From: Sphaerochaeta sp. Phil3
Lineage (GTDB): Bacteria > Spirochaetota > Spirochaetia > Sphaerochaetales > Sphaerochaetaceae
Assembly: GCA_001940825.1 (NCBI GenBank)
Contig: MSGT01000046.1
Coordinates: 1-64,000, forward strand
Direction of reading: 5' to 3'
Length of the DNA stretch: 64,000 nt
The notes under the pieces are model-generated. The model saw only the letters and a list, made by a program, of their open reading frames with translations, had not been told where the DNA came from and searched no databases. A program made the translations under genes and the position numbers. Shown in pieces: positions 1-42,417 of the stretch (the stretch's first letter is position 1; each line of letters starts with the position of its first letter).

Positions 1-28
1 ACCCGACTTTTGTTACAGCCCCTCAAAG

Positions 29-18760: not shown

Positions 18761-18789
18761 TTGACAATATGCCAGGGGGGGGGTAGACT
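18761..18789 (+). promoter_or_regulatory. Promoter with a nine-G tract in the -35/-10 spacer (copy 1)
   Basis: Perfect TTGACA (18761-18766), a 17-bp spacer ending in nine consecutive G (18775-18783), then TAGACT (18784-18789). Slippage in the G tract would change the spacer length and thus promoter strength, the classical layout of transcriptional phase variation. The same arrangement recurs at 41026-41053. Confidence 0.8.
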
Positions 18790-18838
18790 GACGTCGTCAG
18801 TCGGGGAGATTATTCGTCATGCCCCGCTGTCAAAGGGG
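18786..18838 (+). promoter_or_regulatory. Conserved inverted repeat and structured leader of lipoprotein gene 1
   Basis: GACTGAC/GTCAGTC (18786-18792, 18796-18802) overlaps the -10 box and the start site. In the leader, CGGGG (18802-18806) can pair with CCCCG (18822-18826), while the same CCCC can instead pair with GGGG (18835-18838), which is the ribosome binding site. The alternatives exclude each other. The arrangement is conserved at 41050-41103. Confidence 0.5.
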
Positions 18839-18845
18839 TAATTAG

Positions 18846-19985
18846 ATGAAGAAGAACGTTTTGTTTGTAGTTCTCATGCTTGCACTTGTCCTTGTTGGCT
18901 GTGCAGAGCATGAACATGTCTGGAATGAGGGTGAGATTTCAAAAGACGCTTCCTGTACTGAAGTAGGAGAGATGACCTACACGTGTGAAACTTGCAAAGC
19001 CACAAGAACAGAAGTGATTCCTGCTATGGGGCACTCCTATGAATTCGAGGTTACAACTCCTGCTACATGTATAGAGGATGGGGTTGAAACGGAGATTTGC
19101 AGTCGTTGCTCTGCCAAAGGAAAAACAAGATCCATTGTAGCTGCCCACAAATACGATTCAAACGGTGAATGCACCGTCTGCCATGCAAAGAAGGATGATG
19201 TTGATAAAGCAGAGGCAAGGATCGGAACGAAGTATTTCGATACTCTTACTGGTGCCATTAAATCATTGAAGGATGCAGAGTCCAAGACTGCGGAGATTGT
19301 TGTCCTTAAGAATTCGGTCAAGTTGGAGAATTTCAGCACGATTACTGGAAGCAACGATAATTCTGCCTATGATATTACTTTCGTTGGAAATGGTAAGGAA
19401 AAGACAACGATTGATATTTCAACGGATTTGACAATGCCTCCTTATGAAGGGAACCATATAAACTACATTGAAGGTGCAAACCTTGCTTTCAAGGACATGA
19501 CGGTGGTAATAGGTGATGGTTCTAATTACCAGGGATTTGCGAGAGCAGGTTCTCTTGAATTCGACGGATGTGCAATCGTTGGAATGGGAGCGCATTGGGG
19601 AAATGGTGATGTCATATTCAAGGGATGCGAATTCAAGGACAATGGCAACTATAGTCTGTGGCTTTACACTGGAAAAAACTATGTGTTCGAGAACTGTTCA
19701 TTCATTAGTTCTGTTGGCAAATTTCTTCATCCGTACACCGAGCGTCCTTTGTCTCTTACAATTACGGTGAAGAACTGCTCGTTTGAAAATACAAACGAAG
19801 CAGCGGAATCCGGCAAGCCAGCATTGAACATTAAAACTAAGGTTGTTTGCAATGTTTCGTTCGAGGGATCCATTGAGTTTAAAAACGTCGCCACTGGAGC
19901 GCAGGGGTCGAAATACTTCCAGCTTGAGAGTAACAATGGTTCAATCATCAAAATCAACGGAGTACAGATCTATCCAGAAGTCTGA
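18846..19985 (+). CDS. Surface lipoprotein with CxxC repeat modules and a beta-helix-like domain (copy 1)
   Basis: 379 aa. The lipoprotein signal peptide ends in LVLVGC (lipobox Cys at 19), so the product is exported and lipid-anchored. Residues ~20-115 hold two and a half Cys/His-rich modules (HEH..W, C...C..C, GHSYEF) of the kind seen repeated in gut-bacterial surface proteins; the CxxC pairs could bind zinc. Residues ~120-379 have short repeats with alternating hydrophobic and Asn/Gly residues (FKDMTVVIGDG, FEFDGCAIVG-like, FENCSF), suggesting a right-handed beta-helix as in adhesins. It is a paralogue of the 41110 gene and shares its promoter and leader. Function is unknown; exposure and phase variation are inferred. 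Confidence 0.85.
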   Translation: MKKNVLFVVLMLALVLVGCAEHEHVWNEGEISKDASCTEVGEMTYTCETCKATRTEVIPAMGHSYEFEVTTPATCIEDGVETEICSRCSAKGKTRSIVAAHKYDSNGECTVCHAKKDDVDKAEARIGTKYFDTLTGAIKSLKDAESKTAEIVVLKNSVKLENFSTITGSNDNSAYDITFVGNGKEKTTIDISTDLTMPPYEGNHINYIEGANLAFKDMTVVIGDGSNYQGFARAGSLEFDGCAIVGMGAHWGNGDVIFKGCEFKDNGNYSLWLYTGKNYVFENCSFISSVGKFLHPYTERPLSLTITVKNCSFENTNEAAESGKPALNIKTKVVCNVSFEGSIEFKNVATGAQGSKYFQLESNNGSIIKINGVQIYPEV

Positions 19986-20018
19986 TATGTGAACAATGGC
20001 TATGATAGGCTGTGGTTC

Positions 20019-20057
20019 GGTCGCATGGCGGCTGGGCTGCGGCCTTTTTTGTTTTTT
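20019..20057 (+). terminator. Terminator after lipoprotein gene 1
   Basis: GGTCGC (20019-20024) pairs with GCGGCC (20039-20044, one G-U), followed by six T and a further T-rich stretch. Confidence 0.65.
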
Positions 20058-41025: not shown

Positions 41026-41053
41026 TTGACAATGTGCTGGGGGGGGGTAGACT
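41026..41053 (+). promoter_or_regulatory. Promoter with a nine-G tract in the spacer (copy 2)
   Basis: TTGACA (41026-41031), a 16-bp spacer ending in nine G (41039-41047), TAGACT (41048-41053). Same as copy 1 except that the spacer is one base shorter. Confidence 0.8.
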
Positions 41054-41103: not shown

Positions 41104-41109
41104 AATATG

Positions 41110-42417
41110 ATGAGAAAGAACGTTTTGATTGTCGCATTGGTTCTGCTTGTCGCTCTCGTGAGCTGTGCAGACCATGAACACGCATGGAGTGAGTGGAAAG
41201 TTGTTGAGGAATCAACCTGTACGAAAGCTGGTTCCAGAACAAGAACCTGTATAGGTTGCAACGAGGTCGAGACCGAGAAGCTTCCTTTGAAGGAACATTC
41301 CTATGAGTGGACAGTCGTTGTTGCTCCTAACTGTGTCGATTCTGGAAAGAGCGAGCAGGTCTGCTCTGCATGTGGCGCCAAGGGTGAAACCAAAGACGTT
41401 GATGCACTTGGACATGAATACGGCGAAGAAGGCAAGTGTACAAGGTGTGGCAATACAAAGGATATAGTTGACAATGCGGTTGCAAGAATCGGAACTGAGT
41501 ACTATGCCATATTCGAAGAGGCTGTGATTGCTGCTTTGAAATCTGACATTGATTCAGAGAAAACTGTTGAAGTTCTTGCAAAGGAAATCTCTTTGGGAGA
41601 TCACTTCCCAGTGAACGGTTCTGTCACGATAAATGCAAATGGAGCAGACTTTAAGAACAAAGACCTTTCAGTTTATCACTATGAAGTATACACTTCTGCG
41701 TCTGGAAAGGTGATGGACAATGATATTGTCACAAAACAAGGCGACATAAAAATAGTGGTGAATGATGCCAAAAACCTTCATCTTTGGGGTAACGATGATA
41801 ATTTTAGAGATGAAGGTACAACCATTTCCATTGAAATGAAAAACTGCAGGTCGGAAGGTGATTCCAGGACTGCGTCCAATGGGTTGTTGATTTACCTAAC
41901 AGGGAACAAAGGCATAACGAATGTTTTGCTTGAAGGTTGTTCTTCTACGAAATCCAGTTCTCCTGTCTACACGAACGCAAGTGGAGAGATTGTCATAAAG
42001 GACTGTACCTTCACTGAATGCGCCGTTCCAATCAACATGAACTACAAGGCTGCTGAGGGTACACGTAGGGTGACGATAGATGGCTGTACTTTCACGGCCT
42101 GTGGTTGCACAGCTGAAGAAAACGAAGGCCTTTCAGCATATGCAGCTCCTATCAGAGTCCTGCATACTGTAGAAGGTTCTGACGATTGCGTAACAATCAG
42201 AAACACGTCTATTACTGGAACTGTTGGAACTAATGGAGATGTCCTGCTTCTTGCCAAGCATGAAAATGATTCGAAAATCAAGGCCGAGAAAGCAATCTTG
42301 GAGAACAACAAGACAGATATCGAGGTTGTCTATGGAAAGAATGCATCCCATGTAAAGACAGTCGAAGCTGGTGCTTCAGAGACAATCGAAGTCGTCCTTC
42401 CTTCTGAAAGGACGTAA
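41110..42417 (+). CDS. Surface lipoprotein with CxxC repeat modules and a beta-helix-like domain (copy 2)
   Basis: 435-aa paralogue of the 18846 gene. The signal peptide ends in LVALVSC (lipobox Cys near 21). Cys/His-rich modules follow (HEHAWSEWK, CTKAGSRTRTC, GCNEVE, KEHSYEWTV, CSACGAKGE, GHEYGEEGKCTRCGN), then a ~300-aa part with beta-helix-like repeats (VTINANGADF, IVIKDCTFTECAVPIN, VTIDGCTFTACG). I start it at the second of two tandem ATGs (41107 and 41110) because the GGGG ribosome site is then 6 nt away, as in copy 1. It is likely an exported adhesin-like protein. The last ~30 residues differ from copy 1. Confidence 0.85.
   Translation: MRKNVLIVALVLLVALVSCADHEHAWSEWKVVEESTCTKAGSRTRTCIGCNEVETEKLPLKEHSYEWTVVVAPNCVDSGKSEQVCSACGAKGETKDVDALGHEYGEEGKCTRCGNTKDIVDNAVARIGTEYYAIFEEAVIAALKSDIDSEKTVEVLAKEISLGDHFPVNGSVTINANGADFKNKDLSVYHYEVYTSASGKVMDNDIVTKQGDIKIVVNDAKNLHLWGNDDNFRDEGTTISIEMKNCRSEGDSRTASNGLLIYLTGNKGITNVLLEGCSSTKSSSPVYTNASGEIVIKDCTFTECAVPINMNYKAAEGTRRVTIDGCTFTACGCTAEENEGLSAYAAPIRVLHTVEGSDDCVTIRNTSITGTVGTNGDVLLLAKHENDSKIKAEKAILENNKTDIEVVYGKNASHVKTVEAGASETIEVVLPSERT

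Follow-up and report, generated by a model that had tools for sequence, protein, structure and literature searches.

Does a run of nine G residues inside the promoter of a spirochaete lipoprotein gene act as a switch of its expression? The locus that raises this question lies on contig MSGT01000046.1 of Sphaerochaeta sp. Phil3, within a window of 64,000 nucleotides (the whole stretch of DNA that was analysed). Here, an initial annotation had described a TTGACA and a TAGACT hexamer separated by a 17-bp spacer with G9, and had proposed that slipped-strand mispairing in this tract makes the downstream lipoprotein phase-variable. Most of what is known about phase-variable surface genes comes from pathogens. 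If uncultured spirochaetes have a large, uniform set of such lipoprotein promoters, a single population would carry many surface types, which bears on phage resistance, adhesion and host recognition.

Architecture of the poly-G promoter

Direct reading of the forward strand at 18761–18846 returned exactly this geometry. A perfect −35 hexamer, TTGACA (18761–18766), is followed by a 17-bp spacer (18767–18783) composed of ATATGCCA (18767–18774) and the G9 homopolymer (18775–18783), the presumed slippage site, which ends the spacer and directly precedes the −10 hexamer TAGACT (18784–18789, matching TATAAT at four of six positions). With a −35/−10 score of 10/12 this is the top promoter-like site upstream of the lipoprotein gene, and the homopolymer lies within the −35/−10 spacer of a recognisable promoter. 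The palindrome GACTGACGTCGTCAGTC (18786–18802) overlaps the −10 hexamer and the expected start site, and the leader holds a Shine-Dalgarno-like AAAGGGG (18832–18838, forward strand). A leader hairpin or RNA switch was considered and rejected, as the minimum-energy folds of shared leaders vary from copy to copy; an Rfam search of the window returned only two tRNAs, with neither a riboswitch nor another RNA element assigned to the leader.

The gene behind this promoter (18846–19985, forward strand, ATG at 18846) encodes a protein of 379 aa with a lipoprotein signal at its N-terminus (MKKNVLFVVLMLALVLVGC), a lipobox (LVGC) and a Cys/His-rich region. Relatives of the protein are found in the source genome and in the family. 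Searches against Pfam gave a weak C-terminal beta-helix match only, with no match to a Tpr or OmpW domain, and a single-sequence structure model was of low confidence (mean pLDDT 41.5). An intrinsic-terminator-like stem with a T run (20007–20045, forward strand) stands 3′ of the gene, which is probably transcribed alone.

A second copy of the promoter, absent from the initial annotation, is present in the window on the same strand (41026–41053), with TTGACA, a 16-bp spacer containing G9 (41039–41047) and TAGACT. The surroundings common to both tracts take the form TTGACAATGTGCT-G9-TAGACTGA...GTCAGTCGGGGAGA...CCCCGCTGTCAAAGGGG. Downstream of the second promoter is a paralogous lipoprotein gene (41107–42417, forward strand), the 436-aa product of which shares 34% identity with the first lipoprotein over an N-terminal 246 aa.

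Recurrence in the source genome

Runs of eight or more G are not rare by themselves. The window contains four overlapping G8 words against a shuffled mean of 1.35, a count reached by five of 100 shuffles, and G9 by itself is not significant. By comparison, the window has two copies of a 28-nt element that overlaps the tract end and the −10 hexamer, and 100 shuffles produced no copy of it. The source genome (2.36 Mb, 72 contigs) holds approximately 33 tracts of G8 or longer, eight of which have TTGACA 2–14 nt upstream against 0.10 expected (P ~1e-13), and each of these eight promoters is found directly before a lipoprotein start, the counts resting on pattern searches and retrieved loci. The genes that carry them are scattered over different contigs.

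The TTGACA hexamer is identical in all eight copies, which also conserve a core ATnTGC and the tract, with spacers of 15–17 bp. The copy at 18761–18789, with its 17-bp spacer, should be more active than the other seven, provided that the usual optimum of 17 bp applies. Leader and signal-peptide DNA are common to five copies, and the remaining three have only the −35 to −10 core in common, with unrelated flanks. The Shine-Dalgarno-like motif is conserved in five of the eight. The palindrome is perfect or near-perfect in four, its arms are retained in a fifth, and most of the leader-sharing copies keep it; it is a possible candidate for an operator.

Two further ideas were rejected. One was phage cargo, for which neither phage records nor viral contigs yielded a match, and the other was that slippage is driven by a lost mismatch repair, as MutS is present in the source genome. 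The presence of MutS is also a counterpoint, in that it may slow slippage.

A 20-bp sequence, ACTTAAATAAATAACTTACC, is shared at or near the ends of contigs C3, C25, C27, C67 and C70 of the source genome (G000) and occurs inside C32 (L340–L345). It often adjoins G-tract genes and forms one end of an element that is repeated or recombines.

Distribution among relatives

Among 139 genomes of the family, 53 contained TTGACA followed by G8 within 2–13 nt, and the reversed pattern had almost no matches. A stricter pattern (TTGACA-G7+-TAnnnT) gave approximately 235 matches in 37 of 40 family genomes, a proportion that is not a prevalence because the 40 were pre-selected by an earlier pattern match; the reversed control gave none. 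Throughout the phylum, matches were found in 68 of 393 genomes, mostly from the family of the source genome and one other family, in which several genomes have a perfect TATAAT behind long tracts. The number of poly-G copies per genome is eight in the source genome and reaches 13 in a relative. None of ten other genomes of the same genus matched, hence its distribution around the species of the window is patchy. Several of the uncultured spirochaetes come from animal guts, judging by their record names. One single-contig genome (G454, family f3) has seven TTGACA-polyG-TAnnnT promoters with tracts of about G12 or longer, four of them with a perfect TATAAT.

Genes downstream of the tracts

When 130 distinct promoters were read, 113 stood before lipobox genes, ten were cut by contig ends and seven were assigned to other genes, at least two of which are lipobox genes by eye, all automated calls being pattern-based and made without a trained predictor. 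Tract-free controls gave a different picture, as none of 19 TTGACA-15..19-TANNNT sites from the same loci, and four of 65 sites in a broader control, preceded lipobox genes. On these calls, the promoters appear to control genes for surface or secreted proteins. For eight examples of HEH-type lipoproteins, taken from genomes of the genus and the family, the 130 nt upstream contained no G6+ run, hence HEH-type proteins do not always come with the tract.

The hexamer that follows the tract behaves as a −10 element. TANNNT stands immediately 3′ of the tract in 31 members of a set of 36 loci chosen almost wholly without requiring it, and over all loci the hexamer has T at position 1 (98%), A at position 2 (99%) and T at position 6 (96%), in part through selection of the loci. 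Furthermore, TTGACA has an A-rich stretch on its 5′ side that looks like an UP element.

A search of 138 genomes for tracts of C at the same promoter position found only four, of which the source genome has two, and all three of the promoters that were readable precede lipoproteins. As poly-C occupies the same place before lipoproteins, the tract appears usable in either orientation, a pattern that points to spacer length, more than to a G-specific factor or G-specific binding, as the relevant property. The source genome also has two further HEH-type lipoprotein genes of the same protein family with a C tract directly after the lipobox (C9 in L189, G000:C36:22554-22562; C8 in L194, G000:C58:18757-18764) and the long frame out of phase, which other tract lengths would open. 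These tracts appear to be candidate in-gene switches, a second kind of switch that the source genome would use alongside its promoters. Two loci with lipobox-like starts (L187, G000:C33:15446-15454; L192, G000:C49:9196-9204) have G9 in the coding sequence soon after.

Tract and spacer length variation

Tract length in the relatives ranges from 7 to 13 G with a mode of nine, and spacers range from 14 to 23 bp with modes of 16 and 19, not 17, the 19-bp mode being that of the largest genus. The number of G differs in 17 of 20 pairs of loci that are at least 80% identical, including all seven within-genome pairs. When 18 pairs were re-aligned, the number of G differed in 15 and the total spacer in 17, against five indels over all 18 pairs together in the next 96 bp downstream (1728 bp), in a comparison made between genomes or paralogues, not within one population, and with related pairs that are not all independent. 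The consensus sequence of a metagenome-assembled genome hides length mixtures and may misjudge homopolymers. Tract length is unstable in evolution, and the differences between related loci are the footprint expected of slippage.

For the phase variation by slippage that had been proposed at this locus, both the promoter architecture and the instability of the tract between related copies lend support, and the switching of expression is what we infer from them. Existing metagenomes offer a direct test, because read depth alone can reveal mixtures of tract lengths.

Comparison with known phase-variable systems

The mechanism is of a known kind, with precedents in tp0126, tprE/G/J/L and vlp that include experiments. 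In Treponema pallidum, tp0126 (an OmpW homologue) has poly-G between −35 and −10 with a transcription optimum of 17 nt, tprE/G/J require a tract of at most eight G, and tprL has 7–11 G, mostly nine; at tprE/G/J, a CRP homologue acts jointly with poly-G length (PMC7864442). The comparison with tpr genes drawn in the initial annotation is apt, and tp0126, with its tract between the −35 and −10 and its 17-nt optimum, is closer still. The present locus resembles all of these in belonging to a spirochaete, in having a poly-G of similar length in the promoter and in serving surface proteins. However, the Treponema genes encode a few outer-membrane proteins, whereas a large set of lipoproteins is concerned here, and the 379-aa protein, with its lipobox and weak beta-helix match only, does not belong to the Tpr or Tp0126 proteins.

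In Mycoplasma hyorhinis, the length of a homopolymer in the −35/−10 spacer switches transcription of the vlp lipoprotein genes on and off by slippage (PMC2268961, PMC10502178). Here the likeness lies in a set of related lipoprotein genes that have separate promoters, each with a homopolymer in the spacer. The vlp tracts are poly-A and occur in unrelated bacteria, whereas ours are poly-G before genes on different contigs. The system would work alike without being a member of the Vlp group. In Neisseria meningitidis, the level of porA transcription is set by the length of a poly-G in the spacer, and that of opc by the length of a poly-C (PMC7864442). These are single genes for outer-membrane proteins in unrelated bacteria. 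Our literature search found no paper coupling Sphaerochaeta with phase variation, and two in which Treponema denticola occurs together with both poly-G and phase variation, by their titles a review on syphilis vaccines and a paper on a mycoplasma genome. What is new is the breadth of the device, which in uncultured spirochaetes forms a lipoprotein system on the scale of a family.

Proposed mechanism and alternative explanations

We consider it highly probable that the window promoter is a contingency-locus promoter, one of a set in which spacers slip independently at dispersed lipoprotein genes. In such a system, the −35/−10 spacer of a sigma-70-type promoter contains a homopolymeric G tract, and replication slippage would add or remove G residues, changing the length of the spacer and with it the strength of the promoter. 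The result would be stochastic, reversible, cell-to-cell differences in the expression of one lipoprotein, and the same device acting independently on dispersed lipoprotein genes would generate a population mosaic of surface types. We infer slippage at the population level, length-dependent expression, surface exposure of the products and selection, whether by host, phage or adhesion. More tentatively, and with confidence a little short of even, we suggest that much of the lipoprotein surface in this family of uncultured spirochaetes is governed by a single modular promoter design that slips independently at each gene, with poly-G or sometimes poly-C, and by in-gene poly-C switches besides; the 16- and 19-bp modes may mark an optimum for poly-G that departs from the 17-bp rule.

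Other readings give the tract a different role or none. It could be a fixed cis element, with a regulator or a G-specific DNA structure that recognises poly-G and co-regulates the lipoproteins, and with length differences that are neutral drift. Finding the same core before one class of genes is indeed regulon-like, several copies have the palindrome over the −10, and T. pallidum offers a parallel in the CRP homologue that acts with poly-G length at tprE/G/J (PMC7864442). However, poly-C appears to work at the same position, the rest of the spacer is itself variable, with spacer length differing in 17 of 18 related pairs, and in-gene poly-C in lipoproteins of the same genome points to slippage as such, which leaves a fixed element distinctly improbable. 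The variation might instead consist mainly of swaps of the downstream gene, if promoter, leader and signal-peptide DNA were copied between genes as a recombining or mobile cassette with poly-G as a passenger. This sits poorly with the three of eight source-genome copies that keep only the −35 to −10 core between unrelated flanks, and with the hundreds of promoters in relatives that retain the design with different leaders, even though five of the eight have leader and signal-peptide DNA in common, in one relative (L262–L271) a common promoter and signal peptide precede differing mature parts in several genes, and several copies lie at contig ends, some adjoining a shared repeat. We regard the cassette as an unlikely account of the variation, and copying and slippage can in any case coexist.

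Finally, a G run may simply have happened to fall between two promoter-like hexamers, given that runs of G8–9 alone are not rare at this composition. The recurrence of the promoter, its association with lipoproteins and the controls contradict such a coincidence, to which we give almost no weight.

Similar promoters outside the spirochaetes

Two Alphaproteobacteria metagenome-assembled genomes, Emb289P3bin18 and Emb289P3bin118, have several TTGACA-G9/10-TAGnnT sites each (L043, L051, L105, L128, L131, L149), and the genes downstream of these are without an obvious secretion signal. TTGACA-G9/10-TAGAAT promoters are present in Clostridiales SIG415 (L062, L075, L104, L114, L122, L125, L151) and in Clostridia BRZ_GA bin74 (L103), where they occur several per genome upstream of a family of short secreted proteins. 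The similar design in some gut Clostridia, outside the spirochaetes, is perhaps a case of convergence.
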